Shown here: positions 27,703 to 64,000 of the stretch, piece after piece
How positions within the stretch are numbered: the first letter of the stretch is position 1
How the letters are laid out: the number at the start of each line of letters is the position of its first letter
Source: Arctopsyche grandis
Taxonomy: Eukaryota; Arthropoda; Insecta; Trichoptera; Hydropsychidae
Direction of reading: 5' to 3'
Length of the DNA: 64,000 bases
Assembly: GCF_051622035.1 (NCBI RefSeq)
Contig: NC_135365.1
Coordinates: 15,542,001 to 15,606,000 of the forward strand
Notes under the pieces: model-generated
Databases searched by the model: none
What the model was told of the DNA's origin: nothing
The model's input: only the letters and a program-made list of their open reading frames with translations
Made by a program: the position numbers and the translations under genes

Positions 27703-34812
<7,110 letters not shown>

Positions 34813-39954: not shown

Positions 39955-40483
39955 ACGTATGTACATGTAATAAACGTAAAACACATATTTACCTAAATTT
40001 TGAAGGACGTTTCAATATAGAACGATAAAAATCATTCAAATGACAAAGACGAATTAGATTTTTTCGATCTTGATTTAAACCAAGATTGTCGATGTCATCG
40101 GATTAATCATATCCAAGATAAGTGGAAATTTTATTTTTCACTAGTCATTTGCGTGATGAAATAAAGTAATTGAATTAATGTTAAATAAATACATCTTCAA
40201 CACATTCAATTTCCTTTTAGCACTTATATAATTTGCTGTAAATCACGCATTATGAACCCACAAATGTACATACATATGTATGTAAATACATACTTATTTA
40301 CATATGTGATACAATCTAAGACCTTTATCTGTAACAGCTTTATGTAATTGTACGACTATTTATGTGGGTTAAGACACATTAAATGGCGTTTCTGCCAACC
40401 AAGATATTTTTCGATTTTGCTTTAAACATACAAATTTGCATTTGCATATTTGGTTTGGTCTCGCGAGACAAACCAAATGCATT
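39955..40483. repeat. Block A, copy 1: 530-bp segment duplicated at 58138-58667
   Basis: It begins TATGTACATGTAATAAACGT and ends in the palindrome around TCTCGCGAGA. The copy at 58138-58667 follows it base for base with roughly one change in twenty. It includes AAGATTGTCGATGTCATCGG, ATTATGAACCCACAAATG and GGCGTTTCTGCCAACCAAGA. It could be a mobile element or part of a segmental duplication; see findings. Confidence 0.85.
40447..40483. repeat. 37-bp near-perfect palindrome
   Basis: The sequence is symmetric about TCTCGCGAGA, with TTTGGTTTG on one side and CAAACCAAA on the other, and GCAT / ATGC at the outer edges. The second copy of block A keeps the centre but has ATATGG / CCATAT arms, so the symmetry has been retained while the sequence changed. 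Confidence 0.75.
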
Positions 40484-40746
40484 TGTATATGTTACAGTTA
40501 AATTATAACAGCTGTGAAATTAATGTTTCACTGACATTTCAGTGAAATCATATCCAATTACATTTTTACTGGGTATAGTTATATTTTCACTACGGAAATT
40601 ACATATTCACTATTAGTGAAATTATAATTTTTGACAGTTATCCACTATTTGTTTCGATTTGGCTTTTTTTGATGTCGCATGTGTGGGACTGGATGCGAAA
40701 GCAAACATATCATAATATCTTAGCAGCCAACCCTTATTTATTTAAG

Positions 40747-40773
40747 GCTAGGTTAGGTTAGGTTAGGTTAGGT
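40747..40773 (+). repeat. Interstitial telomeric repeat (TTAGG)5
   Basis: About five uninterrupted units of TTAGG, with a degenerate TTAGGTTAAGTTAGGG about 25 bp further on. TTAGG is the ancestral arthropod telomere repeat and is absent from flies. Confidence 0.85.
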
Positions 40774-40872
40774 AAGAGTTGGTTTTATTTATTTAAGATT
40801 AGGTTAAGTTAGGGTTGGTAATACGTTTTAATTCGAATTCATACGTTGTTATTCGAATGCATGGTGCATAAG

Positions 40873-41726
40873 TACAGATGAACAAAAATCTGAATTTCGA
40901 ACGAACGGGAAAAAACCGGGAATTTTGGGAAAAAGACGGAAAATTTGGAGTTTTTTTTTTTACATAAAACTGTATTTTTTTAATTGTGAATGACCAAAAT
41001 AATACAAAACATTTTAGTACATAGCTAATAATTAAAGAAAGGTCACATTAATTTAAAAATAAGAGTTTTTATAAAATTATTTGGATGCCAAACATTACAT
41101 TTATTCAAAATTTATGTATAAAATATATTTAATATAATACAAAATCCTCTTTGACATTGAAAATTTTATGTATTTATATTTCAACAATAGATAAAGGACA
41201 GTTTTAATGCATATATTGATGCATATTTAAGTAAATGCTGTATCAAGTTGATGAGATTCGGAATCAGTAATATATTGTCAAAATATGATTCTACATATTT
41301 AGTATCAAACGTAGGTAAACGTGAACATGCAGAAGATACCATGCATGAAGATTCAGAAGTAGTGGGCTGGTCTATTGCATCTACATACACAAGTCAATAA
41401 TATCGGTATCCATTAAGAGCGGTAAAAGCGGTATCCATTTCTTTATATATAGCGTACGTAAATATATAATTTGTCATTTTTGTAGCATTTGGGAAGTTAT
41501 ATGTATTTCGTATTACAATATCTACATACATACAGCTGCAAACTTCTTATTTGTTCTACATGAAAATGTTTAGATTAATTCAAGTGTTGCATGTGTCGAT
41601 TTGAAAATCCGATTTATATATATTTTTTTCAATTTTCCCAATATTTCCGTCACCCGAAATTCCCGGGGAAAAAATCCGGTTTATTCCCGGGAATAAACAA
41701 GGTTTTTTCCTGACGGCACATCTCTA
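40873..41726. mobile_element. Non-autonomous hAT-like element with 8-bp target duplication
   Basis: The flanks are a perfect 8-bp repeat, TGCATAAG, at 40865-40872 and 41727-41734. The left end is TACAGATGAAC and the complement of the right end is TAGAGATGTGC. Just inside both ends are GGGAAAAAACCGGGAATTTT and related GGAAAAAACC / CCCGGGAA motifs. An 8-bp duplication with short imperfect inverted ends indicates the hAT superfamily. The interior is AT-rich with no transposase. Confidence 0.65.
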
Positions 41727-41734
41727 TGCATAAG

Positions 41735-42946
41735 CGTTCGAATTATGAATTCACTGACATTGAGAAGTGAATATTATGAATATAGTGTGGTAATTATTAC
41801 ATCCGTACTTACTGTTTGAGTCAGTGAAATTATAATCTCACTAGTGATATTATAGTTTCGCTGTAACATCTTTTAACTATGTCAGAGTCAGCTTATATAT
41901 ATAGTATTGGTGGTTTCAACTGGTGGTTTCGAAAAGGAATTGATACAGAAATTAAAATAAAGTTTTTACATACAAATATAAACATATTATAATGTTAATG
42001 TAATTATCCTATGTTGTCCTACAAAGCTAGAGAGAAAAAAAAGGTTGACAATAGAAATTGACAATGGTGAATCCATTTTTTTGTCCAAATATAAATCGAC
42101 CGCCAATCTCTAATCATAACAATAATAATATAAAACCATATATATTTTTTATTTTTTTATTCAATTAGGTCAATATCAATTCCAAAATGGCCCCCTTCTT
42201 GAGCATTTTCTGGATTCGCTAGTGCATCTATCTTATGGTATTTAAAATATTCAACAAATATTTCATCGATCCAGATTGATGACCACCAATAAATGACACG
42301 TGGGGCACTTACATACGTGTGCAATAGTGACGGTCACTTGTTGTTTGATGATTCATCTTCGTAAAAAATGGGAGAAGGTTCTATTACATGAAATAAAATT
42401 GATAATTATCAGTTACCTTGATAACATGGATATTTGTTGTATTTGGAATTTAATAAAAATACTGATCGATTGGCGATTAAATGACTAAAATTTTTAGTCC
42501 GAATTTATGGATGAATGAACGTAAAAACATATGTACATATAGGTGCATAATAAAACACTACATTTGAATAGGTGCACAGAGATATGAGTAGATGAAAATA
42601 TTTCCGAGTAAAAATTACCTGTATGTTCTTCAAATTAGGATTGACGCTGCAAATTGCAGGTCTAATTATTTCCCTAAATATTTTATGATACTCTTAGATA
42701 CATTAATGTTCCTAGTTTTTAACATCCGGTCTAGTTCAGATGGTGAAATGATCTTTTTTGGATCAGGTGCTATGTCAGTAGGTTCAAATCGGGATATAAA
42801 AAACGCTATCAAATATGTTACATATTTGAACTGTAATTTTTTTCGTGTATTATTTTTCCGATAATATGATATTTTTCTATAACGGAATAATACATACATA
42901 TATAAGGCTTATGGTTTTCCAGGACCATTTATTTTCATATCTAATA
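41735..42946. other. Intergenic, AT-rich
   Basis: Short open frames at 42300-42488 and 42592-42864 show no known motif, and I see no convincing gene. The text just right of the hAT target duplication resumes a GTTCGAATTATGAATTCA context similar to that left of it. Confidence 0.45.
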
Positions 42947-43146
42947 TGTAATTTCGAAAGAGACTTTGTAACTTTGTATGTAACTGTTGTTGGTTCGTAA
43001 ATCTGTGACGTCATTGAACAAATGAATATTCACATAAATAAAATAAAACTATTCAAATAAATGTAATAAAATGTTTACAATTAGATTGGCCATGTTTAAG
43101 CGGTTGATATTACAAATATCGAGCGAAGCCGGGTAAAAACACTAGT
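42947..43146 (+). mobile_element. Short Helitron-like element, copy 4
   Basis: It starts TCTAATATGTAATTTCG, carries GATTGGCCATGTTTAAGCGG, and ends GAAGCCGGGTAAAAACACTAG. Terminal TC and CTAG agree with the other copies. Confidence 0.6.
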
Positions 43147-43817
43147 ATTCTATGTATACGGAGGGGCTTGAAATGTTTACATAGGTCTTATTTTACTTAT
43201 GTTGAATCTGGATTTGCAGTGAGTGTGATTCATCAATACATGGAAATACCTTTCTAGCATGTGTTGGTCGGAAAAGTGTTTCAAATATCTGAAAAAATTG
43301 GGTTGATTGATGATTTAATGGTGATTGTTTCAGCTTAGCGGTGAGAAATACATTTTATTATACACAGATACATATGTATTATGATGATTATAGTAGGTAC
43401 ATATTTCCAGGAATCGTATTGATCACATCAACGAATTGATACAACACAATAGAAGCTTAAATTATTATATGGTTTCTTTAATTCTATTATTCATATTGGA
43501 ATGTTATTGAATTTCATATGCTCAAATGAAAATTGATAATATTATTTTGATGCAAAGCAATTAGAGAACAGAGCTCGAGATACTTATGAATTTTTGAATA
43601 AGTATCCAAGCTGCTGATGACGATGAATTATTTTTACAAACATTATATGCATATTTATGTACATATGTATGTACTTTCATAGGTGTCCAGTCAAAATCGC
43701 TCGGTAAATTAGCGTCCCGGAATTACCACGCGGAGACAAAACCATGTATATGAAAAATTAATATTACGTGATTTTTTTCGTCGAATTAAAACTGTGGTCT
43801 AAATAAAAATAAAGTGA
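43147..43817. other. Intergenic, no feature seen
   Basis: AT-rich sequence with TACATA microsatellite patches. I see nothing supportable. Confidence 0.5.
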
Positions 43818-44307
43818 AAATTTGGATGTGACCGGTCCCATGACTTCTATGTATTTGAGGAATAATAAGAAAGTCACAAAACAAAATTCGATATTTAAAC
43901 ATATGTATATTCATTCAACAACATTCAGACAAATTGAGTGCAAATGTAGGGAAACTTGTACAAGACAAAAGTTTTACTTTCGGTTGTCGGATTTTGTTCA
44001 ATTTTTTTTCTATTACTTAAAATCACTATAAATATTATGCATAATAAATATCAAGAAGATTAAAATTGTTTAGAATGTCAAAATAAAATAATTAAAAATT
44101 GTTTTAAAAAAACATACTACTTCCGGTTTACGAATTCCGACCAAAACCTTATCAGCTCTAAGTTAGTACATAAAAAAAACAAATATAAATTTTCAGCTCG
44201 ATACATTCAGGGGTGTGGAATGAATCGTGATTACAACATTTTTGACTTTTTTAAGAGAAAAAAATCCCACTTCCGGTTTATTAAATTTAGTGATTTTTTT
44301 ATATGAT
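43818..44307. repeat. Interspersed repeat family D, copy 3
   Basis: It matches 8219-8725 through TATGTATTTGAGGAATAATA, TTTCGGTTGTCGGATTTTGT, CTACTTCCGGTTTACGAATT and CACTTCCGGTTTATTAAATT, and ends at the same TTTAGTGATTTTTTT boundary. Confidence 0.75.
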
Positions 44308-44691
44308 AGTTGTGCATTGAAGTTAAGCCAGATGTGCAGATTGGACAGATATAAATTCAAATGTATATATGTATGTACACAGTAAAGATTCGTTTATGGT
44401 TGAATAGAATAAGTATGGATCGGAATTAAATTGGTATGCCTATGATAGCGAAACCAATTTTGTTTATATCTCGATGAAATTTTTCGAGATACGGAAATTA
44501 AGCCGTAAAATATAACCGCATGTTATTCAAACGAAAACCGAATTTTTGATTGTATACATACATAGGTACAACTATGTATGTATAATATTATACAAATATA
44601 CATACATATGTACATATGCTATTGTACGTGCATATGATCTTTGTATGTAATTCAAGTGCAAATATCTACATATATTGTATATGTAGGTAAT

Positions 44692-44940
44692 CGGTCTCCG
44701 TGACGGGCCGGAATGTGAAATGCCGGAAAACGCAAATATCGGAAGGCAAAGATCGAAAATCGAAATTCTGCGCGCGCACATTAATACGGGAGGAAAAGCC
44801 TGTTCCTCTTGTTCCTGTTGTATCCTGCTCGCGCAAATTAAATGAGTATGTACCGTTTACCATGAATCCTTTTTTTCGATCTTTGCCTTCCGATATTTGC
44901 GTTTTCCGGCATTTCACATTCCGGCCCGTGAGGTAGACCC
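44692..44940. mobile_element. Long-inverted-repeat (Mutator-like) MITE, copy 4 (internally deleted)
   Basis: The left end is CGGTCTCCGTGACGGGCC and the complement of the right end is GGGTCTACCTCACGGGCC. The left arm is shortened, bringing the total to 249 bp against about 380 bp in copies 2 and 3. The flanks GTAGGTAAT and GTAGGTACA approximate the 9-bp target duplication. Confidence 0.75.
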
Positions 44941-45539
44941 GTAGGTACATATGTATATGTACATATGTACATCTTCTTATCAAAATATAAAAAAGGCAAA
45001 CGCAAATATTGTACACAGTAAAGTATAGGTAAATTGTATGTAGATGACGCTAGTACGAGCGATTCTTTTAATCATTTTTTTTTTGGGATTTAAATTTGGA
45101 ATATTAATTCGATTATATTTTCCCAACAATTTTAAATATCAAGAGGATCTGGTTATTATTTACGATTTTGCTTCCAAATGGTTAAACGATCTATTATATA
45201 AAGTTACATTTAATACCTATAATAATTGAAGTTGAATTAAATTTCGAAAAAAAATTACCATAAATAAAGAAAACATAACATGTTAGTGCCTCGTCTATCA
45301 TTATTAATTTGCGCATTTTAGGAATGCAAAATTGAGGATTGCTTTATTAATGACAATGATGTCAATTTAATACATGTTATAAATGTTATTGACACAATGA
45401 TTGTGTTGTAAAATTTTGTAAAAATAAGTTGTAAAAATAATTTAATAATAATACCAATAAATACGACTAGATAAAAAGAAAAACATTAAGGTAAATTTAT
45501 AAAATTTATTATTATATCAAATGACTAATCAAAATGTAT
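44941..45539. other. Intergenic, 3' flank of gene 3
   Basis: AT-rich. Parts of 45290-45500 (AGGAATGCAAAATTGAGG, TGTTGTAAAATTTTG, AAGAAAAACATTAA) resemble 62290-62410 downstream of gene 5, showing that the duplication included 3' flank. Confidence 0.45.
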
Positions 45540-45545
45540 TTTATT
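45540..45545 (-). terminator. Polyadenylation signal of gene 3
   Basis: AATAAA on the minus strand, about 60 nt beyond the gene 3 stop codon. Confidence 0.65.
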
Positions 45546-45604
45546 ATGCATTTGCTATTAATTCTATACATCTATGTACATACATTTCTTAATATTTGCA
45601 TTAG

Positions 45605-48600
45605 TTAAAATAATAAATATATACAAAAACAAAGAGTGGCAACAAAAATTGATATGTTTTTAGTATTTGCAGAGTTTCTGGAGTCTTTGAGTGAAATATT
45701 AATAACATTTTCATTCAACCATGGATCCAAATCTTTAAAAACATTTTCAATCCAATAAAGATTCTTAAGAATAATACCAAATGCTGCGTCAGCGGCATCT
45801 GCTTCAGTCATTGTATAGTCATCTATATAAAGCCTCATAAAATCATCGAACTATAAAGAATAAAATGCTAGTAAAATAAAATAAATATAAAATGTGGTGG
45901 AAAATATTAAATTACATTTGGAACGTACTTGTAACGCATTTTCTCCCGTAACTATATTGTCTCTAAGAGCATTGATTATCTTTACCGTACTAGAGGGCAT
46001 CCTAGAATTCATGTAAGTACGATCAAATATATGAAAAAATAAATCAGGTATACTTTAAATTCGAATGTACTGGTTATCGGTACGCACATAGTTTGAATAG
46101 TGGTGAAATTATTCTTGACAAATTCCATTGCATGATTTAGACCGAGTTCCCCAGAATCGATAACTGATTTTACAATAATGTATCTATGATCTGGAGTAAG
46201 TTCGATTTCTTCTGCAATACTCATCGACAAATAACTGAAAGAGAAAAATGGGAGAATCAGAAAAAAATCAGAGAAGGAAATTAATATCCGAAATGCAGTG
46301 TTATTATGTATGTATATACATATATACGACTTACTTTTTGATAATATCATCATTTTCGGAACAAGCCAAACTTTTGAGGATAGTGGTCTTTTCAGATATT
46401 GACGATGAGTTAATGTACTTGTTCCAGAAGAAATTCCATATTTTTACCGTAGAATTTTGAATGCCATAACAGTATACAATGTTTCTCATATCAGGATCAA
46501 TTTTCATATAATCAACGTCATTTTCAGTTAAGGTTTCGAGTGCTTCTTTCGATTTTTTCAAGCAATTCTCATTTCCCACACTACAGGCAATCTTTGCAAT
46601 GGTTTTTCTCGTCATTTTCTTTATATAATCATCGTCTTCATTTGTATCAAATCCAACACTATCGTACATTTTATTGCTGATTTGAAGTATATATTTCTAA
46701 AATTTAAGTTTTGATAAATTTATAAAAATAAATGTATATATTTTAATGAATTTAGATATTCATGCAATTATATATGAATAAATGTATGTATGTAATTATA
46801 CACACTTTGTATAAGGAAATGTTGGCAGCCGCTGGCATTATCTTATTTAGGAAGAGTATTCCAGGTTCTACAGTTTTCCAAACAATAAAATCAACCTCTT
46901 CTCTTAAATAGCTTAACAAGTCAAATGTAATATTGTAGGACTGGAAATACAAACATATTAAAAACTCATTTAATATTTATTATTTTGATTAAAAAATAAA
47001 ATGATTTAAATACCATGGTTAGAGATTTTGCGAGTGCCATGGAATCATCAAGGAGTTGAGCTCTATTCAAAAAATGAATATTACTGAAGTTTTGAGCTTT
47101 CAAAGCTTCACTCAGAATCTTCCAATTATTGTTATCGTACAATACACGATAGTAACCTTTGTGATAGTAAAAATGAAATCATAAAAAATCTAAGCTATTT
47201 AAAAAAAAAATTGTAATTCAATGTCTACCTGTTACTTGTGTGTTTAAAATAAACCAGGAATTATCTTTCAAGTCCATAGGAATATTCAAAGTGGTTTGAT
47301 CTGGACTAAACCATTGTTGTACTGACGTGTGCTCAAAGTTACCATCTTTAGAAGTGACCCATGTTATTGGTATCCACCATTTTTCCGAGCTGGAAGTTTC
47401 TGAATCTTGGTAAAAGCGTCTCTGAAATTTCGTAATAATGTTAAAATTGAAGCATTTCTTAAAATTGTTTTGGAGTATATGTAAATACGATACGAACTTG
47501 AGTTATATCTATAGAGTTTTTGTCGTTTGATATTACAGCGCTAACTACAGGTAGACCAGGCTGGTTTGACCAAGATCCAAAAACTTCTGAAACCGTAACA
47601 TTTTCCGGAAACAATCCTTTGCCATTAGCTGCCGCTTGCAGACCAGCAAATAGCGTTTCTGGCTCTGCAATACCTTGAGGTCTGTAATGAATATTTCATA
47701 CATATTGCTAATGGTATATCCAAATTAAGTAATATTTTTGAATAAAATTGAACATAATTTTCATTCAACTTGAAACTATTAAAAAAAAATAGACTATTTT
47801 TTTAATTTCAGTTGACAACTGGACAATACGTACACATATACGTATATAAATCTTTTAAGTAAATTAAATGATTATATTAAATTATGTTATACTTCTCGCT
47901 TAAAAACTCCGAACTCATTTCTAAAATAAACTTACACGGAGATCAAATAATTTGTCAATCCTTGTTTGAAAATTGGCTCTCCTAGGATGTGGGACATCAT
48001 TCGAATAACACTTCCAGCTAAAATAAAAATTCAGAGAATAAACATATCCATTTACATTTAAAATATTTAATATAATTGAACATCACATTTTTTGTAAGCG
48101 ATTGCATTAAAATTTTGAGAGATTTCCAATGGTGTTATGACTGAGGATGACATAGGATTGGTTGATTCTAAAGCATCCGCCTCCATAGCTTTGTGGAGTG
48201 TTCTGAGGACATATTGGTCCATAATTCGCCATTCTGGAGCGATCTGTCAAGACATTTGTACAAGAATTTAGTGTTTTGTTTAATTACCAAAGTACATACA
48301 TATGTATATTTCAATCATTGATTTTACTCTTTCTGATGTAAAAGATTCAAAGTATGTAGCAAATCCTTCATTTAACCACAGATAATCCCACCAAACAGGA
48401 GTGACCTCATTTCCAAACCACATATGAGCATTTTCATGACATAAATTTGTAACGACTAATTGTAAGTCATCCATAGTCGTAACACCGGGTATGTTGAATA
48501 AACCAGATTCTCTGAAAGTGCGTGATAATAAACTATTTAGATAACGAAGATAGCATTGGAGTGATTTGATGGAAAATAATAGCATACCCGTATGTGATAA

Positions 48601-50411
48601 GTCCCCAATTTTCCATTGCTCCGCCTCCAACATTAGGAATCGCTATATTGTCCAGCTTTGAAAGGCCGTATGTGACGTTTGTGTACTTCTCTAAATCATC
48701 AATGCTTTTCTCCCCGAGTTTGAATGCAAAGTCTATATATTGAATAGCATTCGGTCTTGCAAATACCCTATACTTTTTAGAAAAAAATTGAATGGGTTGG
48801 TCTTCGTTAGATACGTAGGAAAAGTCGGAAATTGCAAAAGCAATCAAGTAAGATGACATTGGAACGCTTGGTTCGAATGCGTACAAATTGAGGTCATCTT
48901 GTAACGGAGGACTGAAAATAATGAAAACGAAATGTTAATTACTTATAAATAACATAGGCCTACAAAAAAATTTGATTCATTGCATTTAAAGTTAATTAAT
49001 AAATGATTTCAATAAAATTATATTGAGTTATTTATGTACATCTAACACTGTTCGACAAATGACGACTATTTTTTTTTTTGGTTCAGAGACGAGATATGAC
49101 TTTTCTTACAGATCTATGCCCAGTGAACACGAATCTGGTAATAAAAAATGTTTATTGGCTCGAGATTCGGAGATATGTGTTTTTTAAATCGCGCGATTTT
49201 TCTATATCTTGGTGTTGTTCGGTCGATGTCTCAAAATCAATTTCCTGTTCAAAATGAATATTGGAATCTATATTCGGGTATTTTATCTTTCATTTGTAGT
49301 ACTTTTCAGCTTTTAAATCTCTCTAAGTAGTCACATCAAAAGTCAAAAGTACGTATTTTCACTTGGGATTTTTCCACAGTTAATACTATTTTATATTGAG
49401 TATTTTCTATTGAAACATGTTTATTGGCACAATATACTCCATATTTAAAAATTTTATAATCAGTTTTTATAAATCATTAAGTATCAATAACATACATAAT
49501 TTTATCTTTTTGTCGGAATGTTATCTATTGCTCTTTGTTGAAACGTTTATTTATTTTCTCAGTAGTTTTTAGTAAGTTATTTATGTACTGTGCTATTTGT
49601 ACAGCTAATCACACTTCAAGTGTGATTGAATGTAGATTAAAATTCGCTACATTTATTTCAAATACGAACGTATGTATATCTATATTGGTAACTTACAGTG
49701 AAGTATCATTTGTTTGGTCAGTATTGAATATTGCATAATATCCTGCAGGTGTATAAATATTCATTTGAAAGATCGCCTTCAGGGCAGGTTCATCATAACA
49801 CGGAAAAACATCTCGAGCATTCACAGCTTCGAGTTGAGTACTTGCTAAGTATCTGGAAAAAAATTACGTAACACATTATAAAATTGATCGTGCAATTCAT
49901 TGCTCTGCATTTTTACATACTTGGTTAATCCATCGTCGTTCTGGTAAGAGCTTATGAACAGTCCGTGTGAATAAGTTCCATATTTGCCTAAATAGTCAAT
50001 GTCGATTACGTACAGTTGGTTGATTTTTAACAGTTTTGTTAATTTTATTCGCAAAAAATTCGTATCGCCATTAGATATCGTGTGATTCATGTAAATATTG
50101 TTATTGTCTTCTGTCGAGTGCACAGTAATATTATTAATCCTGAAAACGTTGGAATGTAGAACAATTTCGTCAGTTTCTATTTCGGCAAATGTGTTGATGG
50201 CCACGTGTCCTGGGAACGAATCCTGTTTATTTGGGTCAATTTTCAAAATCACCGTGTAGTGCGAAGGCTTTGTCGTTCCTGGCAGTCGGTATTGTAAAAA
50301 ATTGGATTTCTTTTTCGGGAAAGATTCAACATTGGTGTTTTTCGTCAGCGAAATCGGAGATGCAATACATTCACTAACCACAAAGACCAGTAATATTATT
50401 TTGAACATCAT
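45605..50411 (-). CDS. Gene 3: secreted or GPI-anchored aminopeptidase N paralogue (complete)
   Basis: M1 aminopeptidase. Coding exons, 5' to 3': 50411-49921, 49852-49697, 48911-48588, 48511-48328, 48243-48087, 48017-47936, 47681-47498, 47421-47229, 47156-47014, 46940-46806, 46696-46335, 46234-46088, 46001-45929 and 45850-45605. They sum to 2877 nt, giving 958 aa. [18 protein letters not shown] is a signal peptide. The C-terminus [16 protein letters not shown] is a short hydrophobic tail compatible with GPI attachment. GAMENWG is at 313-319. Zinc ligands are His349, His353 and Glu372 in a [12 protein letters not shown] context, with Tyr435 as catalytic tyrosine. The residue joining exons 3 and 4 is Gly where genes 1 and 2 have Arg. 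An acceptor (CGTTTCAG) sits two bases before the ATG, so there is an untranslated 5' exon. Genes 4 and 5 are its closest relatives here. Confidence 0.92.
49047..49433. repeat. Interspersed repeat family I, copy 1 (gene 3 intron 2)
   Basis: It begins ACTGTTCGACAAATGACGAC and continues through TCTATGCCCAGTGAACAC, TTTTTCTATATCTTGGTG, TTCGGTCGATGTCTCAAAAT and GTATTTTCACTTGGGATTTT to GAAACATGTTTATTGG. The same series is at 61282-61655. There is no open frame. Confidence 0.8.
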
Positions 50412-52844
50412 TCCTGAAACGTCAAAAAATCTATAAAGGATTATTCATTTTCAGAATTGCATTTTTTTGAGATAGTTCAACGTATGTAAAGTTTCTACCA
50501 CCAGGTCACTGACTGTTCTTACTTTACAAATTATTTTTAAATATCATTTTAAAAATTTTATATAAAATTTTTAACGTTGCTGCCACCAAGTTGCCGATAG
50601 TCAGTTTTTAAGGGTTTTTTTTTTTACAAAAAATCAACAAAAATATGATTTAAAATTGATTTTTATTATTATTTTAAAACGAATGAAATTAAAGCTTTTT
50701 GAAATATGCTAAAAAATGTATGCTTATCAACGGAAAACAGATAAAGAAGCGTATCATGCAGAAAAGGTCTTCATGATCACGATTCTAGGTGCCACGTGCG
50801 CACGATTGACAAGGGATATATGTACATATGTATGTACATATGAATTATGTATGAAATACTTGGCTACAAAAATCGAAAACGTAATGCAATCAAAATAAGC
50901 TGAAAATTGATACATGTAGTAATAATGGTAAACAGACTATTTCACACAATGTGATCGTGCGCACGACAATCGCGAATACGGAATATCTGGAACTCGAGTT
51001 GTCGTAAGTATGATAGTTCGCGTGTACAACTCTCGATGGATGGAATTTACGGGTATCAGGTGTTCCGTGATCGAGATCGTTTTGTTTAGAATAATCACCC
51101 ATCCAGTATTAATATGAGATTAGTTAAATTTATAGAATAACCACCAAATTTCATATATACGTACGTGCTTTATTAAAATTGCTTTTTTTTACCTGTTTAC
51201 GAATTGATTGAACAAATATTAATATTGAGTATTTATCAAGATTTTATGTACATAAAATGTAGATGCCTTTGGGCATACTGAGTCACAGATATGTACATAT
51301 TTAATTAAATTGTATCAATTATTAGATTAGATTATATTTCCCACTTTTTTCTGATAATTCAACTAGTTTCATATTCGATTAAATGACGCAATATTAACGC
51401 AATTGCTTGAAGGAAATGCATACTTGAAGGACATGCATATTGAAAAAAGAAAACAGAAATGAAACAATTTTTTTGTTAGAACAATAATCCTTTAACCTTA
51501 CTTACTAAGTTACCTTTAAGAACTATTATACACCCAAAACCAAACCATAATATGGAGAAAAGTGATGAAATATTGTCTTAATCTGGATGATAATTATGAT
51601 TAACAGTTTCTCAACTATTTTGGGTCAAAGTATATTTTAATTTAATTATGTAGAATACATATACATATATGTATATATGTATATCAATATAAAACTTTAT
51701 GCTTTTGTTTATAAAATTAAAAAAAATAGAATATACACCTTAGAAAATATGTTAATATAAAATTAAGCACAATTTCCATCGGGAAAATACATACAAATTA
51801 TAAAAATCATTCATATTATTTTGAAAAATCTATTAAAAGTGTCATTTAATATTTACTATAATGGATTGGTCCAATTTAATTACGATTTTACCTGACAAAA
51901 CTTTGGGAAGCCTCAAATCGATTAAAATAAACTGATAAGATATCATTTCATTTCAAAATAATCAATTTTATATAATTTACTACTTCACCGTACAAATGAC
52001 GAAATATAAATGAATGAGGGCTTATCTAATGGCACTTTACCTATATTATATGTGTGTATGTATTAATGATTCCAATTTACCGTAATTTCTGTTGACCGAT
52101 AATTCGATAATATTGTTTTTACAAATTCCCGGTTTTTAAATCTAAATAAACAACTTTTTTATGTACAAAATATATTTAACCAAGTGCATATAAATATAAT
52201 TTATTATATACTTAAATATATTAACCAAAAAATGGTATGAGTGGTAATTAATGAATGATTCATAAATGACTAAAAAAATGAATTTTTTGGTTCGTAGTTT
52301 AAGAAATTAGCAGCGAATAAAACATACTGAATTATTTATAATAGTTGTAATCTATTTTCAAAACAGTCATTTCCTTTTTCAGTTTCTTTATTTTTTTTTT
52401 TTTTCTGGGTAGATTCCTTTTCCAAACTGACTTCAGTTTTATTTCATGTATGTACCTATACATGACATATCGCTTTACCTCACAGTCAATTTGGAAAATT
52501 ATATTTTCTACGATTAAAATAGCATTGAATTGGTTGGAATTATGTAAATATCGATACTTTTGATAATATTCTAATCACATTTTTTGTACCAAATATTGAA
52601 ATATACTTGGAAAAGAATTGTGTAATACATATAAATACATAATATGTATGGATTGGTTGGAAAAAAGATCTACTTTAAATTAAAATTTATAAATTTTAGT
52701 GGCATCTATCGATCAACTTTCAAACTGTTAAAATTATTTTTGATTTAAATGAGTTCAGAACCTGACACTTCTATTGAAAAACGTGTAACAAATTAAATAT
52801 ATGAAAATAAAGCATTCTTATAATCATCAGAGTAGTCAAAGCTT
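50412..52844. other. Region between genes 3 and 4
   Basis: The first part must carry gene 3's 5' leader and promoter. A non-repeated, GC-richer patch at 50890-51110 is the best candidate for this. The rest is AT-rich. A stretch at 52290-52370 (CATAGTTTAAGAAA-type text with AGCAGCG) recurs at about 62180-62250, so the 3' flanks of genes 4 and 5 share sequence. Confidence 0.4.
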
Positions 52845-53397: not shown

Positions 53398-56300
53398 TTA
53401 TTCAGAAATATTTGAAATCGTGGTAGAACTCTCCACGTTTTCCAACAACCAAGAATCAATGTCTGGCAATACTCTATCAAGCCACGCCCTATTTGATGCT
53501 ATCACAGATTGAGCTACAGCTACAGCTACACTTTCATTTATTGTGAAATCTCCGGTCTGAGCAAATTCGTTAAACTGTAATTGATTTAATATAAAATAAA
53601 ATTTAATATTAAAACGAAAACAAATTGTAAATTATTATCAATCATATACACACTTGATCTACATTCTCCTTGGTGACGATTCTACTCCTAATATAGTTTA
53701 TTAGGGTTACTGTATACTCAGGCATGCTGTAAAAGATATATGTATGTAGGTTAAATTGCATATTAATATTTAAATATTAAAATAAGTTTATATAGAAAAA
53801 CATAATTACATCGATTTGATAGCGGCGAAGTTCGTCGTAATGAATTTTACGGCTTGATCAACACCTACATATCCAGCATTGATTACAGATTGTAGTACAG
53901 TGTACCTGTGTCTATTGTCGAAAAGTCCAGAATTGTTTTCAACAGTCAACATTAAATAACTGAAAGATATGATAAAATTATTTTCAGATTTCATGAATTC
54001 TCACACTTTTAAAAAAACTCCCTTTTATTATTAATATATGATCTAGTGTTTGCGATTCGTTTAACTAGACTTACTCTTGAAGGATTTCAATATCCTCGGA
54101 GCAGGCAAGATATGTGAGGATGGTTACTTTTTCAGAATTAGACGTTGCGTTGATGTATTTGCTCCAGAAGAATTTCCACAAGTCATTTGTGGCGTCACGA
54201 ATACCAGAACAATAAACAGAGGCTCTCACATCAGGATCAATCGTCATATCTGCATAATAGTTATAAACATTTAGAAATCATTTCAACAGTAAATTTTCAA
54301 ATGATAAGCCATTTTAATACAATTCAACAAACTCGTGTCTAATAAAATTTGCGGTATATTTAAAATATATCAGTAATCTCACTATAATTTTGAGTCAGTT
54401 GTTCAAGTTTTTTGTTAGAATTTTCTTTACAGTCCACATTTCCGGCATTGCAAGCAATGTTTAAGATTATATTTCTGTTCATTTTCGTAACATAATCGTC
54501 ATTTGGTTTTGGTTTAAAACCAACGTTTTTGTAAACTTTATCTATTATTACAGGTGTCTATTTTTGGAAAAGAAAGACTCGAATGATTCAAAGATGGTGA
54601 TACAAAATTTTTAGTTAATTTATATTTAGTTAACAAGATATTTAGAATGTGGCAGGAAAAATCGACAGTATTTATATTTATAAAATTTGAATGGAATCCG
54701 AAAGGAAGAAGGAAATATTTTTTTAGTGAAAGAAAAATATATATGAGAACCTATAATGCAAATTTTTCAGATATTGTCCACAATGGCTGTCACCTTCTTC
54801 ACAATTTACGAATTTTTAAACATTTATCGTGATTAAATTTCACTACTGCCATAGCGGAAACAATTGACATCTCTATCGGGGGCAAAACCTCGCAAAATTC
54901 AAAAGTTTCAAAGCGATCAGAAGGATATAGGGAGTTTTCCATACCATCGGACAAAGTGAAACTAGTAAAAATCCTGTAAAAAAATAAAGATGACCGGAAG
55001 TATACGCGAAAGTAAGTACATATGTACATACATACATATGTATGTACATATAAACGAAATTTTCTTTAAATGTATATATGTATATGTGTATTAAATACCC
55101 TGTATTTATTGAAATTGGTGGCAGCAGGCATCACCAAGTTCAACGTGTTTATTCCAGGTAATACAGTCAACCAAGGAATGAAGTCAACTTCTTCTTTTAA
55201 GTGGAATAACAAATCAAATGTCGTAGCGTAGTTCTGTAGAAAAAACAATGTCATTTTATCAATATATAAATAAATATGTTGCTATATTTTTAAAAAACAG
55301 AAAAATACAAACCAGCCGTAAAGTCCTCGCCAGTTCTAAAGAATCGTCAATTAACTGAGCTCTATTTAAAAGATGAATACCGCTGAAATTTTGAGCCTTC
55401 AAAGCTGAGGCCAAAAGTTTTCAATTCTTGTTGTCGTACGTCACACGATAGTAGCCTGATTCGTGATAAAAATAAAATTTATAAACAATATTTAAAATAT
55501 ATACAAATAAAATTAAAAAAATATGAAAATACAATACCAGTTTCTTGTTTGTTTAGTATAAACCAACTATCTTCATCTAACTCCAAGGGTATATTTAAAA
55601 CGGTATCGTTCGGGCTGAACCATCTTTGCACTAACGTATTTTGAAAATCACCCCCTTTAGATGTGACCCAAGTTATTGGAATCCACCATTTTTCGGAAGA
55701 CGTAATATTTGTTTGATAAAACCGCGTCTGATAAAATTGCATGATTTTCCAATTAATTTATATATTAAATTGTACATCTATAGTAAAACATATGTATTTA
55801 ATCAAACTTGTGTCAGGTTTATGGATCCATTGTTGCCTCCTGTGGCCGTGACCAAAGGATATCCAGGTTGAGTTGACCAAATTCCAAAGATGTCTGTAAC
55901 TGTTAAATCATCTGGTAGTATGTTTTTTCCATCGGCAGCTGCTTGAAGACCGTCAAATAGTTTTTGTGGCTCTGCGAGACCTAGAGGACTAAATTTAAGA
56001 TATGTTACTTACGTTTTTTTTTTTATTTAAAGTAAAAGTTATGTTATATATAAACATAAAAACTTACTTGGATTTCAAATAATTTTGGAGACCTTGTCTG
56101 AAAACTGCCGTTCCTAAGATATGTTCCATCATTCTTATCACACTGCCAGCTGGAATTTAAATAAATTGTACATGAAACAGATCATTGAAAGTGATTATTT
56201 ATTGAAAATAAAATAACACAATACGTACATTTTTCATACGCTATTCTGTTAAAATTATTGCTGATTTCTCGCGGCGAAGCGACAGAAGCTGTCATTGGGT

Positions 56301-56868
56301 TCGCAGATTCTACGGAATCTGCTAACATGGCTCTATGAATGGATCCCATGACGTACTGGTCCATTGTTCGCCACTCTGGTGCAACCTATTATAGAATATT
56401 TATATATGTACCTAAATTAATACTTTTCACGTAAAAGTTTTAAATTTAAATAAAAAATTAATCATACTTCTTGGGTTGTGTATGATTCAAAATACGTGGC
56501 AAATCCTTCACTCAACCACAGATAATCCCACCATGCTGGACTGACTTCATTTCCAAACCACATGTGACCATTTTCGTGGGACATGATTGTAGCGATGAAC
56601 TGCTTATCTCTCGTAGATGTAACTCCAGGTATATCTAGCAAATATTGCTCTCTAAAGTGCAAACGATACGTCAATTCATCAAATATAAACAAAAGTATTT
56701 TAAAGATGGAAAAAAAAGTCTTGCCTATATGTGATAAGACCCCAATTCTCCATGGCGCCTGCTGAAAAATCCGGTATGGCAAAGTTGTCCAGTTTTGAAA
56801 GGGCATAGGTGACGTTAGTGTATTTTTTCAGATTATTTATACTCTTCTCGCCGATATCGAGAGCGAAA
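53398..56868 (-). pseudogene. Gene 4: 5'-truncated aminopeptidase N pseudogene
   Basis: Exons, 5' to 3': 56868-56725 (partial exon 3), 56651-56468, 56385-56229, 56149-56068, 55988-55808, 55727-55538, 55455-55313, 55233-55099, 54557-54383, 54249-54075, 53959-53810, 53726-53654 and 53574-53398. Reading enters mid-exon at DFALDIGEKS because a mariner occupies 56869 onward and no exon 1 or 2 exists between it and gene 5. GAMENWG, HENGH with its paired glutamate, and the catalytic tyrosine are intact. However, the conserved Trp codon after YDNKN in exon 9 has become TGA (55421-55423). The donor after exon 3 is GC rather than GT. The last exon ends NISE with no hydrophobic GPI tail. Other splice sites and frames are sound, so the decay is recent. 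The product, if expressed, would be dead. Confidence 0.88.
54720..54985. repeat. Interspersed repeat family J, copy 2 (intron of gene 4)
   Basis: It shares AAAATATATATGAGA, CTATAATGCAAATTTTTC, AGTTTCAAAGCGATCAGAAG and AAAGTGAAACTAGTAAAA with 28190-28690 at moderate divergence. Confidence 0.5.
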
Positions 56869-58137
56869 TCTGACTGACCTGATCTGTAGGCTGACACATA
56901 GATAGCGCTACTAGTTTTAAATCCATATGATTTTTAGTTAGCCCCAACCTTAAAAAGACACGTGTATAAATTTGACAGCTGTCGTACTATTAGTTTGTGA
57001 GTTATAGCATTTTGAGTGAAGCAACTTTTATTAGTTTGAAATGGATAAAAAGGAATTTCGTGTGTTAATAAAGCATTGTTTTTCGGCGAAAAAAAATACT
57101 ATTGAAGCCAAGGTTTGGCTTGATAAACATTATTCGGACCTTGCACCAGGAAAATCAACCGTTGAGAAGTGGTTTGCTGAGTTTAAACCAGGCGAAATGA
57201 GAACCGATGACGATGCACGCAGTGGACGCCCCAAAGAGGCTGTTACCGACGAAAACATCAAAAAAGTCCACAAAATAATTTTGGATAACCGTAAAGTGAA
57301 ATTGATTGAGATAGCTGAGACCCTAAAGATATCAAAGGAACGTGTTGGACATATCGTGAATGAATATTTGGGTATGCGAAAGCTCTGTTCAAAGTGGGTG
57401 CCGCGCGAGCTCACAATCGACCAAAAACAACAACGAATTAATGATTCTGAGCAGTGTTTGGAGCTGTTCAATTGTAATAAACCCGAATTTTTGCGTCGAT
57501 ATGTGACAATGGATGAAACATGGCTCCATCATTTCACACCGGAGTCCAATCGACAGTCAGCTGAGTGGACTGCACGTGATGAAGTGACTCCAAAGCGTGG
57601 AAAGACGCAAAAGTCGGCTGGCAAGGTTATGGCATCAGTATTTTGGGATGAGCATGGTATAATATTCATCGACTATCTTAAAAAGGGAAAAACCATTAAC
57701 AGCGACTATTGGAGCGTTTGAAGGACGAGATCGCGGAAAAACGGCCCCATTTGAAGAAGAAGAAAGTGCTGTTTCATCAAGACAATGCACCGTGTCACAA
57801 ATCAATGAAAACGATGGCAAAATTGCATGAATTGGGCTTCGAATTGCTTCTGCATTCACCGTATTCTCCAGATCTGGCCCCCAGCGACTTTTTCCTGATC
57901 TCAGACCTCAAGAGGATGCTCGCTGGACAGAAATTTTGCGCCGATGAAGAGGTAATCGCCGAAACTGAAGCCTATTTTGAGGCTAAAGACAAATCGTACT
58001 ATAAAAATGGTATCGAAAAATTGTATGACCGTTATAATCGTTGTATCGCCCTCGAAGGCAACTATATTGAATAATAAAATCAAATTCTAACAAAAAAAAG
58101 ATTTTTTCTATGCTAGCCTACGAACTTTTCAGCCTAA
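56869..58137 (+). mobile_element. mariner transposon (mellifera/cecropia-type), inactive
   Basis: About 1.27 kb, with a transposase reading frame in the middle. The right end, complemented, is TTAGGCTGAAAAGTTCGTAG. The left end aligns with it as TCTGACTGACCTGATCTGTA (14 of 21 bases with one gap) and continues through GGCT and ATAGA. No clear TA duplication flanks it, which is unusual for a simple insertion. The left flank is coding exon 3 of gene 4 and the right flank is block A copy 2. Confidence 0.85.
57041..58074 (+). pseudogene. mariner transposase, frameshifted
   Basis: Tc1/mariner-family DDE transposase. The first part (57041-57721) has the N-terminal helix-turn-helix DNA-binding region, the WVPRELT linker (known in the family as WVPHEL) and the first catalytic Asp in YVTMDETWLHH. 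The second part (57709-58074) has the second Asp in HQDNAPCH and the third in YSPDLAPSD, 34 residues apart, giving the DD34D signature. The frames are joined at about 57708, where INSDY runs straight into LERLKDE. Some 10-11 nt seem to have been lost, creating a frameshift and early stop. The remaining sequence is well preserved, so the loss is fairly recent. The sequence is recognisable as mellifera subfamily. Confidence 0.9.
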
Positions 58138-58667
58138 TTGTTATGTACATGTAATAAACGTAAAACACATTTTTAACTAAATTTTGAAGGACGTTTCAAT
58201 GAAGAACGATAAAAATCATTCAAATGACAAAGAATAATTAGATTTTTTCAATCTTGATTTAAAACAAGATTGTCGATGTCATCGGATTAATCATATCCAA
58301 GATAAGTGGAAAATTTCTTTTTCACTAGTCATTTACGTGATGAAATAAAGTAATTGAATTAACGTTAAATAAATACATCTTCATCACATTCAATTTCCTT
58401 TTAGCACTTATATAATTTGCTACGAATCACGCATTATGAACCCACAAATGTACATACATATGTATGTAAATACATACTTATTTATATATGTGATACAATC
58501 TAAGACCTTTATCTGTAACAGCTTTATGTAATTGTACGACTATTTATGTGAGTTAAGACACATTGAATGGCGTTTCTGCCAACCAAGATATTTTTCGATA
58601 TTGCTTTAAACATACAAATTTGCATTTGCATAATATATGGTCTCGCGAGACAAACCATATTTATTTT
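58138..58667. repeat. Block A, copy 2
   Basis: This is a near-identical copy of 39955-40483, starting at the mariner's right end and ending at the same TCTCGCGAGA palindrome. After that the two loci diverge immediately (poly-T here). Confidence 0.85.
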
Positions 58668-58737
58668 TAATTTTATTTTTTTTTAATATTTTTTTATTTT
58701 TTTTTTAATTTTTTTATTTTTTTTATTTAATTTACAC

Positions 58738-59331: not shown

Positions 59332-60900
59332 CAGGGGTCGGCAACCTGCGGCTCGCGAGCCACATGCGGCTCTTTGGATGTGAAGCTGCGGCTCTTTGGA
59401 TGTGAAGCTGCGGCTCTTTAGTTCCATACGCAAATATTATATATTTTATCAAAAAAAAAAAAATTAAAAATCGTTCTGAATCGATTAAAGAGGATTAGGC
59501 ACCGATTCTATCACACCGAGTCACTTGTGGTCGCTTTTCACCGCACCCCTCCCCCGTCACACGCGTCGTCACTGACGTCAGTCCGTCGGAAGCTCTCGAA
59601 TTCCACAAATAACAATACAGTCATAATTTATTTGTTTGCAGTGAAGCGTTCACCCCAGCTCGTAGTTTCGTCATCCGCTCGCCGCTTCCACGAAATGGTA
59701 CGCACGGCCTGAATCGTGTTGCAGATTTTGTCCTCAGCTGCAATGATATTCGAAGCATATATTGACATTTTTTTCTTTTTATGAGACCTGTGCTATTTAG
59801 AAACGAATATGATTTTCTCAGTCGGATTTTCAAGTGCTTAGATCTCGTTACGCGGTATGTGTGTTGTGCTAAGACGCTGTTGTTTCTGTTAATTGTACGA
59901 AGATTATCTATTTTTATGTAAGTACATTTTATTACAATATTTATATGTCCAGTTCTTCGATACAGCGAAGAATAAATCATCAATAATAAACATGGTTGTA
60001 AGTATGTCCAAATACTTCAGAGCCCGATATAGAAATAATAGACAATGACAGAGAAAGTTGAACTAGAAATTGAACAGTCCTTGCAAGAAAAACTTGATCA
60101 AGCAAAGTAAATAATTGCAAAACTTGTCATCTGCTGTTGGATACCTAAATAATAATTTTAAAAATTCTTTATTATAGCTTCACCGCAAGCATGGCATCTA
60201 CAAAAAAAAAGAGAAGAACTGAAGAAGAGCATCGAGAATTCAATCGGGATTGGATGGAGTCGTTCGCTTTCATATGCAACTCAGATGGCCTTCCGACTTG
60301 TCTCATTTTCCAAGAAAAACTCGCATACATTAAGAAATCAAATTTAGAGAGACACTTCACTAAAAACATACTCAGTTTGCTAGTAAATATCCAGCCGGCG
60401 AAGAACGAAAAAAAGCTGTCGACGAACTCCAAAAACAAAAACAGCAATCAAGTTCTACGTTAATTAACTGGATGCAATCTACATGTAATGTTAATCTGGC
60501 AAGCTTCGCGGTATCACTAGAAATTGCAAAAAAAGGTAAACCATTCACAGATGGTGAGTATGTCAAAGATTGCTTCATACGTGCAGCTGAAGAACTGTTT
60601 TGTGATTTCAAAAAAAAACCAGAAATCGTGAAAAAAATTAAAGATTTGCCACTATCCGCTAAAACAGTACAAGATAGAATAGTTAAAATGTCTTCAAATG
60701 TAACATATTTGCAGGTGGAAGATATTCAACTTTCTTCTGCCTTATCACTTGCTATAGATGAGTCTTGCGACATAAAAGACACGGCACAAGTTGCCCTTTT
60801 TGTCAGGTATATGTCATCCCAAGGTCCAAAAGAAGAACTTCTACTAGATACATGTGTACTTCAGTTTTAAACATTATAAAATACGATCATAATTTTGCTA
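59332..60900 (+). mobile_element. Decayed hAT element with GTF2IRD2-like transposase
   Basis: The start CAGGGGTCGGCAACCTGCGG is a classic hAT (Charlie-type) terminus. It is followed by a 22-bp tandem duplication (GGATGTGAAGCTGCGGCTCT and two more bases). A transposase-like reading frame follows at 60191-60870. The opposite terminus was not found, so the element is truncated. It inserted into a SINE. Confidence 0.75.
60191..60870 (+). pseudogene. hAT transposase fragment (GTF2IRD2/BED-finger type), frameshifted
   Basis: The first part opens MASTKKKRRTEEEHREFNRD and contains a degenerate BED-type finger: the normal Cys-x2-Cys reads CLIF, followed by NLERHF. A frameshift at about 60366 moves the reading to a frame giving [20 protein letters not shown], which joins the open frame of 60472-60870 (INWMQSTCN, then [20 protein letters not shown]). 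The latter is the start of the RNase H-like catalytic fold, with DES as the first acidic site. The remaining catalytic and dimerisation regions are absent. This family gave rise to domesticated vertebrate genes, but this copy is clearly dead. Confidence 0.75.
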
Positions 60901-61281
60901 ATTCACATTCACTTGCGAAACTTTCAAATGTACAATTATAAGTTTCTTGAATTTTTAAATCAGTGGAATCTCATACTTGATAAATGGAATAAGGTTAACA
61001 CCGCACTTCAGCAGAAGGAACAGGATATTTAGTGATCATCGTTATTGATTCAGGGGCTCAATAATGATTTTAGAAATTTTCGAGAAAATAGTTTATGTAA
61101 AAGTTACTGAACATTGCATTAAATTGTATTATAAAAAATATCTTAGTATAATATTATAACAAATATATAACAATAGAAATTGAATTAGTAAGTAATATAA
61201 ATTTTGATAATAGAATAACAGACTTTGCTAAAGCCAAATTCAGGGAAAATTCGTCTGTAGCTTTTTTAGCTGTAATAATTA
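60901..61281. other. Possible further hAT remnant, then AT-rich DNA
   Basis: Positions 60900-61035 contain a more complex stretch ending in GAAGGAACAGGATATTTAG that may be a rearranged part of the hAT element. I cannot align it with confidence. Confidence 0.35.
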
Positions 61282-61655
61282 CACTGTTCGACAAATGACG
61301 ACTTTTTATCTATGCCCAGTGAACACAAATCGGGTAATAAAAATGTTGATTGGCTCTAGAATCGGAGATATACATACGTATGTGTTTTTCAAATCGCGTG
61401 ATTTTTCTATATCTTGGTGTTATTCGGTCGATGTCTCAAAATCTGTCAATTTCCTGTTCAAAATGAAATTGGAATCTATAGTCGGGTATTTTATCTTTCA
61501 TTTGTAGTACTTTTTAGCTTTCAAAGTAGTCGTCCAGTTCAAATCAAAAGTTAAATGTACGTATTTTCACTTGGGATTTTTTCCCACTGCTAATACTATT
61601 TCATATTGAGTATTTTCTATTGAAACATGTTTATTGGGATAGTGTTCTGGCCACA
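61282..61655. repeat. Interspersed repeat family I, copy 2
   Basis: It matches 49047-49433 from ACTGTTCGACAAATGACGAC to GAAACATGTTTATTGG, lacking a 40-bp segment near the start and with scattered changes. Confidence 0.8.
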
Positions 61656-62596
61656 CTATTTTTTGTTTTCGTTTAAAAGGGTTAATTAGAAGTTTTCTGA
61701 ATTTTAAATCGGTAAAATTTTGAGCTAAAAGCTCGTACTAGTATTTACTCGTATTTTCACAAATCTGAGTTGAATTAATAGGGATAATATATTAAATTGT
61801 CTTTAAATGAGAATTAAATAAAATTCCACTTAGAAAAATCATATTTCGACTATTCTTGTGGATTAATAACAGAAATTCGTTTATTTTATCGAGATAAGCC
61901 ATTTATAAAAATTAAAATAAATGATAAACAAACGACAAAAAAATAATAATCTCGACATTTTAATTGTGTTTTAACTGCACTGATTCCTTTTATAATATAT
62001 TTATTGCGAAATTGTCAATGTGGAACATTTATAATATAAATAATAACTGTTTTTTTAATGTTTAATTTAAATATTAAATATTTAATTTAAATAGTAATAA
62101 TAAGAAAATTTTAAATTGGCACCAAATTTGATATTTGCCAAGGGCACCAATAACATCGCTACGGCTCTGGCAATGAATGAATAATTCATAGTTTAAGAAA
62201 ATAGCAGCGGAGAAAATATAATGAATTTATTATAATATTTGTAATCTAATTTTTTGGGTTTTATTTCATTTCATCAAAAAAGTATTAATTAGGAATGCGA
62301 AATTTAGGGTTAATTTATCAAAAACATCAGAATTACAATAAATATTATCATATAATGGTGTTGTAAATATTTTATGCTAAAGGCACGACAAAAAAAAAGA
62401 AAAACATAAATTTAACAAAATAACATTTATAACAAATTCCAAATATCAACAGCCATTAAATAAAACCAATATGTATTTTTAAAACCAATATGCATATGCT
62501 AGTCATATGTACATTAATATATATAAAAAAAATCACCACTAACACGAAAACCATGTGAACTGTATAAGAGGTATATAATTATTGAAAATATGAAAA
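61656..62596. other. Intergenic, 3' flank of gene 5
   Basis: AT-rich. It shares short tracts with the 3' flanks of gene 3 (62290-62410) and gene 4 (62180-62250). No clear polyadenylation signal lies close to the gene 5 stop codon. Confidence 0.4.
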
Positions 62597-64000
62597 TTAT
62601 GAACACCAAAGAACACCAAAGAACACCAAAGAATACCAAAGTAAACCGTTTTTAGTATTTGTATCAGTAGAATTTTCAATCAACGATGGATCTATGGCTT
62701 TCGTTTCTTTTTCATTCCTACCAACAATTTCTGGAAAAATAACAGTAGAATTTTCATTCAACGATGGATCTATGGCTTTCGTTTCTTTTTCATTCCTACC
62801 AACAATTTCTTGAAAAATATCAGTAGAATTCAACCATGGATCTATGTCTTTCAAAACTTTTTCTATCCTTTTTGTATTTTTATTAATAATTTCATATGAT
62901 GCATCCGCAAAATCTCCCTCTGATGATGTAAAGTGTACTATATTAAGATCCGCAAAAGCCCCAAACTATATAAAATAAAATGTTTTCTCAAATTAAATGT
63001 GGTGGGAAATATAAAATCATAATTGGTACGTATGTATGTACATACTTGTGATTCACTGCCTCCCGTAACTATATTGTCTCTAAGAGCATTGATTATCTTT
63101 ACCGTACTCGAGGGCATCCTAGAATAGATGTATGTAAATACGATCAAATATATGAAAAAATAAATCAGGTATACTTTAAATTCGAATGTACTGGTTATCG
63201 GTACGTACATAGTTTGAATAGTGGTGAAATTATTCTTGACAAATTCCATTGCATGATTTAGACCGAGTTCCCCAGAATCGATAACTGATTTTACAATAAT
63301 GTATCTATGATCTGGAGTAAGTTCGATTTTCTCTGCAATACTCATGGATAAATAACTGAAAGAGAAAAATGTTAAATCCAGAGAAGGAAATTAATATCCG
63401 AAATGTAGTGTTATTATGTACATAAATATATACGACTTACTTTTTGATAATATCCTCATTTTCGGAAGAAGCCAAACCTTTGAGGATAGTGGTCTTTTCA
63501 AACATTGACGACGAGTTAGTGTACTTGTTCCAGAAAAAATTCCACATTTTTAATGTAGAATTTTTAATGCCATAACAGTATACAATGTCTCTTATATCAG
63601 GATCAATTTTCATATAATCATCCTCATTTTTAGTTATTTTTTTTAGTGTTTCTTTCGATTTTTTCAAGCAATCCTCATTTCCCACACTACAGGCAATTCT
63701 GGTAATGGTTATTCTCGACATTTTCTTTATATAATCGTCATTTTCATTTGTATAAAATCCAACGCTATTGTACATTTTATCGCTGATTTTAAGTATATAT
63801 TTCTAAAATTTAATTTTTGTAAAAATATTAATAATTATTTTATTTTGACTAATTTGTATTACATATGTATGAATATACACACTTTGTATAAAGAAACGTT
63901 GGCAGATGCTTGCATTATATGATTTAGGAAGAGTATTCCTGGTTCTACAGTTTTCCAAACAATAAAATCAACCTCTTCTTTTAAATAGCTTAACAAGTCA
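62597..64000 (-). CDS. Gene 5: aminopeptidase N paralogue, 3' part only (runs off the right edge)
   Basis: C-terminal exons of a close copy of gene 3, 5' to 3': beyond 64000 to 63883, 63802-63441 (362 nt), 63355-63209 (147 nt), 63118-63046 (73 nt) and 62965-62597. The sizes equal gene 3's exons 11-13 exactly. They encode the helical C-terminal (ERAP1_C-like) domain; catalytic exons lie outside the window. The final exon differs greatly from gene 3: it is 123 codons long with two full copies plus part of a 26-residue repeat (IVGRNEKETKAIDPSL core) carrying NST glycosylation sequons. It ends in LLWYSLVFFGVLWCS, a hydrophobic GPI-like tail. All visible frames and splice sites are intact, so this is probably a functional gene. 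Confidence 0.85.
62601..62640. repeat. Four tandem 10-bp units within the gene 5 stop-proximal coding sequence
   Basis: GAACACCAAA is repeated three times, then GAATACCAAA. On the minus strand the units are read in successive frames and encode most of the hydrophobic C-terminal tail. Confidence 0.85.
62671..62826. repeat. Two tandem 78-bp coding units in gene 5 last exon
   Basis: Units start at 62671 and 62749 and are nearly identical. A third diverged unit begins at 62827. Each encodes 26 residues in frame, so the array lengthens the stalk without disrupting the gene. Confidence 0.9.

Follow-up and report, generated by a model that had tools for sequence, protein, structure and literature searches.

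A 64-kb window of the Arctopsyche grandis genome (Trichoptera, Hydropsychidae; contig NC_135365.1, positions 15542001-15606000) holds part of an array of M1 aminopeptidase genes in which a pair, gene 3 (type A) and gene 4 (type B), recurs as genes 5 and 6. Gene 4 lacks its 5' exons, and beside its broken end lies a mariner transposon, followed at once by the second copy of a sequence of some 530 bp that we term block A. The original prediction, made from the sequence of the window, placed the junction of a tandem duplication at this point and allowed the mariner a part in it. We propose that the duplication of the gene pair is old and that the mariner probably marks a later deletion, which extended from its 5' end into gene 4. 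The junction as first placed is thus probably wrong.

The window belongs to the 475.7-Mb assembly GCF_051622035.1, which comprises 189 contigs. An extension of 20 kb leftwards and 106 kb rightwards was added, and the resulting region of ~190 kb was searched by tblastn with the exon pieces of gene 3 as queries (E up to 0.001). All positions are given in window coordinates, those above 64000 lying to the right of the window.

Genes 3 to 6 share one orientation, and genes 3 and 4 are repeated as genes 5 and 6 with order and orientation kept, as in a tandem segmental duplication. A homologue of gene 4 had been predicted to the right of gene 5, and the rightward extension contains it. This gene 6 is 95.7% identical to gene 4 over 53018-54542 and 99.1% over 54549-56870. 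It continues past the end point of gene 4 for ~2.3 kb, as far as the outer end of exon 1 (75225-77525), and so supplies the exons that gene 4 is without. Those exons have not simply been displaced to the right, since tblastn with the gene 3 exon pieces found nothing between 56.87 and 62.83 kb. The main BLAST matches between the duplicated parts have E = 0, which excludes chance similarity. Judged by homology and order, the series gene 3-gene 4-gene 5-gene 6 derives from the head-to-tail duplication of a type A and type B pair.

Table 1 Features of the aminopeptidase array and the mariner junction. Limits of genes are those of exon matches and are to be read as predictions.
Feature	Position	Strand	Remarks
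Block A, left copy	39958..40487	+	starts at TA 39958-39959, the unoccupied counterpart of the mariner site
Gene 3, type A M1 aminopeptidase	45608..50444	-	open exon pieces e1-e10; Pfam Peptidase_M1_N, Peptidase_M1, ERAP1_C
Gene 4, type B M1 aminopeptidase without 5' exons	53401..56870	-	BLAST/tblastn; nonsense codon 55421-55423
Filler, 15 bp between gene 4 exon sequence and mariner	56871..56885	.	junction comparison
Mariner copy	56886..58141	+	outer 20 bp of 5' terminal inverted repeat and 5' TA absent; 3' end intact
Block A, right copy	58142..58669	+	flush with mariner 3' TA; then a poly-T-headed repeat
Gene 5, 3' part inside window	62828..64000	-	remainder at 64001-68219; exon 1 split by insertion
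Gene 6, homologue of gene 4, right of window	71.6-77.5 kb	-	exon 1 at 77001-77525

The exon sequence of gene 4 matches gene 6 up to 56870, and homology to the mariner begins only at 56886. The element carries a Transposase_1 domain (63.2 bits, cut-off 24), with HTH_48 and DDE_3 found below their cut-offs, and its transposase reading frame is interrupted. For comparison, 26 other copies were read out of 39 listed. In 22 of the 26 the 5' inverted repeat retains its outer 20 bp with at most one mismatch, and 20 of these 22 have a TA beside it. On this comparison the family is one with terminal inverted repeats and a TA target duplication, of which the window copy is a clipped member. The absence of a visible TA duplication, noted from the start, is thereby accounted for: the right TA is present, with block A beginning directly there, and the left one was lost with the broken 5' end. 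No full-length source for the filler exists in the ~190 kb around it; exact matches there reach at most 13 bases and all take in letters of the neighbouring exon, and a further match of 8 bases lies inside the mariner. A border that falls within the element, 20 bp short of its 5' tip, together with 15 bp of filler, is the signature of end joining at a transposon-bounded deletion, and the 5' end of the mariner is a repaired break, not a transposition end.

In four of the 26 other copies (L022, L035, L036 and L037) the outer part of the 5' inverted repeat is likewise lost or changed, and the TTTTCAGC 3' end is kept. This hints at recurrent one-sided 5' loss in the family; the query itself is without the 5' tip, and the sampling is possibly biased.

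Block A does recur as originally described, its two copies being 94.5% identical over 530 alignment columns. Similarity starts exactly at a TA, the first dinucleotide of the block, and the left copy is preceded by unrelated sequence. This abrupt start at the TA of the mariner is expected if a deletion ending in the mariner removed the homology to its left. A search for the left neighbourhood of block A elsewhere (20.0-39.97 kb against 56.7-63.0 kb) gave only weak, AT-rich or dispersed-repeat matches, and the same was true of 30.0-40.1 kb against 75.2-83.6 kb. Block A was also considered as an independent dispersed transposon and rejected as such. A genome search in which very common words were skipped gave 71 candidates; among the best 40, which were scored, block A is covered by the two window copies alone, while 36 places match the adjoining repeat only and two a short ATGTA-rich piece. 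At the left copy the dispersed repeat begins at ~40484, on its right edge. A palindrome around TCTCGCGAGA lies at the right end of each copy (40449-40478 and 58633-58662), and the copies differ in both arms, matchingly.

The relative ages of mariner and block A point the same way. Against a consensus built from the 26 copies, the window mariner shows 15 substitutions in 1256 sites (1.2%) and two indel events. The block A copies differ over 39958-40483 by 26 substitutions in 524 aligned sites (5.0%) and one gap event, or 2.5% per lineage if evenly split. A binomial comparison of the two gives p = 0.027; set against half of the block A differences, the 15 mariner substitutions give p = 0.06 and the 10 private ones p = 0.01. 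These values are suggestive, not decisive, of a mariner younger than the block A duplication. With its broken and filler-repaired 5' end, such a mariner does not look like a participant in the duplication, and that part of the original prediction was not supported.

A single event that copied 39.95-56.87 kb and joined gene 4 to block A had also been proposed. It would leave homologous spacers and an even divergence between the copies, and neither was found. Identity between genes 3 and 5 ranges from 71% to 99% across 250-bp windows; two windows in intron 1 (49022-49521) fall to 44-49%, that is, unaligned, and some patches differ by 9-14%. Gene 5 is thus a copy of gene 3, as was first supposed, but not a uniformly close one, and its exon 1 is split. 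In windows of this size genes 4 and 6 are 93% to 100% identical over 53078-56850. In both pairs the differences are clustered. The variance/mean ratio is 5.7 for genes 3 and 5 over 45900-48980 (p = 0.0002) and 3.6 for genes 4 and 6 over 53080-56868, each beyond all 5000 of 5000 permutations. When polarised with two type B genes, the divergent patches of genes 3 and 5 show changes on both lineages. Because the differences are clustered and both lineages have changed in the divergent patches, the gene 3/5 pair looks old and patchily converted. Coding constraint alone fits poorly, since exons e2, e3 and e8 fall in divergent patches while 47.0-48.26 kb, introns included, is 96-99% identical. Pairwise comparison with outgroup polarisation and the clustering of differences thus strongly suggest that interlocus gene conversion kept parts of the gene bodies alike. 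Over the tract shared by genes 4 and 6, 54 of 3766 sites differ, or 0.7% per lineage, and this tract looks younger than both the block A duplication and the mariner.

The spacers tell a different story from the gene bodies. Between the copies, spacer 50553-52825 shows 45-51% identity in the same windows. The best score for 50525-52865 is 59.7 bits, equalled by one of 145 control segments, and that for the downstream spacer 40490-45690 is 45.4 bits, a value that at least 8 of 21 control segments surpass, some of these controls containing known repeats. Since the real scores are unexceptional beside those of the controls, the spacers are without demonstrable homology. Weak collinear matches (63-72%) were entertained as traces of an old duplication and withdrawn, control segments scoring similarly. 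The sole spacer piece that is clearly alike lies beside the 3' end of gene 4 (52870-53029 against 68917-69068, 87%). Such non-homology fits an old duplication and is no proof of one. A tandem duplication is thus supported, and a single copying of the whole segment is not.

Between genes 5 and 6, at 69068-71213, lies a hAT-like insertion whose ends read CAGTGGCGTAAC/GTTACGCCACTG and in which TTGAAAGC is repeated; the counterpart site between genes 3 and 4 is without it. In the spacer below gene 5, open frames at 60149-60870 suggest a putative hAT/BED-type transposase; 60364-60870 has no Pfam match.

We therefore favour the following course of events as the probable one. An ancestral type A and type B pair was duplicated head-to-tail to give genes 3, 4, 5 and 6, after which gene conversion very probably kept the gene bodies partly alike, while the spacers were lost or replaced, in part by transposons, as several insertions show. 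Later, a mariner would have inserted at the TA on the left edge of the right block A, of which the left block A would preserve the unoccupied counterpart. The element would then have suffered a double-strand break at its 5' end or slightly within it, plausibly an aborted excision; leftward resection would have followed, and end joining would have closed the break with 15 bp of filler. The resulting deletion would have taken 20 bp of the mariner, the 5' exons of gene 4, the sequence between them and probably the true duplication junction. A leftward deletion from the mariner 5' end would make gene 4 a beheaded pseudogene and the mariner the marker of a deletion junction. In favour of the deletion we count the gene 6 exons, the mariner 5' end, the start of block A, the order of ages, the clustering of differences, the spacers, the nonsense codon in gene 4 and a precedent. 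Nor does the deletion require that an independent mariner should by chance have inserted at a junction already there.

The precedent comes from rice, where excision of DTT_SC, an element of the Mariner superfamily, left a one-sided deletion of 2,479 bp starting exactly at the element's end (PMC4423477). Excision fillers in that study averaged 13 bp, close to the 15 bp found here, and the deletion border lies at the end of the element in both cases. There the element is gone; here it is retained with a clipped 5' end.

Several points weigh against this course of events. Neither the intact state before the deletion nor a remnant of the deleted stretch is seen in this one genome. The age contrast is modest (p = 0.03, or 0.06 when the block A differences are halved), and a consensus built from best-matching copies may lower the apparent age of the mariner. 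Loss of the 5' tip need not mean a large deletion, since four of 26 other mariners have lost or altered it. Finally, block A is 95% alike amid non-homologous spacers and wants an explanation of its own, either conversion or constraint.

A related possibility, which we regard as unlikely, is that after the break at the mariner the end of gene 4 was resected, invaded gene 6, was re-copied from it and then end-joined to the clipped element. The gene 4/6 tract of ~3.5 kb at 97-100% stops exactly where the junction lies, and its differences become sparser in that direction. If this is true, one transposon-triggered break would have beheaded a paralogue and homogenised the remainder in the same repair.

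Several other explanations were weighed. A mariner at the 39958 TA of one chromatid or homologue may have broken at its 5' end, or undergone alternative transposition there as a hybrid element, joined gene 4 and so duplicated 39.96-56.87 kb with itself at the junction. The right repeat begins precisely at the mariner 3' TA and genes 5 and 6 come next in the predicted order, as this would require, and reversed-ends transposition of maize Ac does yield tandem duplications that have the element sitting at their junction (PMC3744419). The maize case also has a class II element between direct repeats, one of which starts precisely at its end. Here, by contrast, there is no precise 5' joint, the duplication is apparently older than the element and, outside the near-identical patches, the copies have diverged strongly. 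Precise joining at both ends is not what the filler and the clipped 5' end show. Moreover, the left site carries neither a mariner nor an obvious footprint, so that one must further assume heterozygosity or precise loss; the spacers are non-homologous, and the gene 3/5 patches differ by far more than the 1.2% of the mariner. We consider this account unlikely. Slightly more improbable is a junction made by illegitimate joining of a gene 4 exon to block A, with gene 4 born truncated and the mariner landing later and losing its 5' tip. The gene order is exactly as predicted and four of the 26 other copies show such tip loss or change too, but an unrelated mariner must then have landed no more than tens of bases from the junction, and a separate break must have struck it there.

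The near-identity of block A but not of its neighbours would be accounted for by a templated insertion in which mariner and block A were copied together from the left locus to fill a break in gene 4. The donor chromosome must then, we infer, have carried a mariner at 39958, with allelic divergence of ~5%, and we hold this account very doubtful. Unequal crossing over between mariners at different sites on the homologues (the 39958 TA and gene 4) would leave a single junction mariner and two empty parental sites, as at 39958 and in gene 6. It should also leave an intact 5' repeat with a TA in gene 4, which is not seen; it shares the age problem of a mariner-made duplication and needs a later small deletion besides, and we give it very little credence. 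An assembly error or merged haplotypes producing the junction is just as hard to credit: nothing speaks positively for it, the contig is 30.8 Mb long, and the divergence of genes 3 and 5, with the distinct insertions in the right copy, exceeds plain allelic difference.

The identity of the genes rests on domains and motifs. In Pfam scans, four of five gene 3 pieces scored above the cut-off for Peptidase_M1_N, Peptidase_M1 or ERAP1_C and one of two gene 4 pieces for Peptidase_M1; the remaining two pieces scanned, one from each gene, had no Pfam match. By tblastn, gene 3 contains GAMEN and HENAH, and gene 5 has VAMEN instead of GAMEN; GXMEN and HEXXH...E are the motifs of M1 aminopeptidases. By these marks genes 3, 4 and 5 are M1-family aminopeptidase genes. 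Two of them are damaged. At the nonsense codon of gene 4, gene 6 reads Trp, and the insertion at ~67154-67678 in exon 1 of gene 5 brings in an in-frame stop. Gene 4 is thus a beheaded pseudogene and gene 5 is damaged also; no disabling lesions were seen in the exon-level matches of genes 3 or 6. The gene 5 insertion measures ~510-525 bp, its ends look like inverted repeats by eye, and relatives lie in intron 1 of gene 3 (49079-49427) and at 61308-61735.

The array extends beyond these four genes. Further type B genes or fragments lie at 83.5-87.2, 90.4, 96.1-107.6 and 111.4-116.8 kb in the extended region. Inside the window, tblastn matched two more M1 aminopeptidase genes on opposite strands, at 18564-23530 (+) and 28976-33376 (-), and a TA microsatellite of ~390 bp lies at 30793-31185. 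Insects have tandem arrays of M1 aminopeptidase N genes. These arrays resemble the present one in having several M1 genes in the same orientation and patchy near-identity of neighbours; here, in contrast, both inner copies, genes 4 and 5, bear disabling lesions. A search for papers that treat conversion or tandem duplication within clusters of aminopeptidase N genes found nothing clearly on topic.

The observations behind the original prediction are thus confirmed and its interpretation is partly supported; of the two findings named at the outset as refuting it, no gene 4 homologue to the right or block A at many unrelated sites, neither was made. A transposon lying between two repeats is easily read as the cause of a duplication, though the one described here is probably the mark of a deletion that came later. 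Three signs help to tell the two apart: erosion of the inverted repeat, the presence of filler and the relative ages. The case is ordinary in kind and unusually legible. The turnover of a gene array can be read in adjacent copies: genes arise by duplication, conversion homogenises them, and they are lost through insertion and through a transposon-edged deletion.

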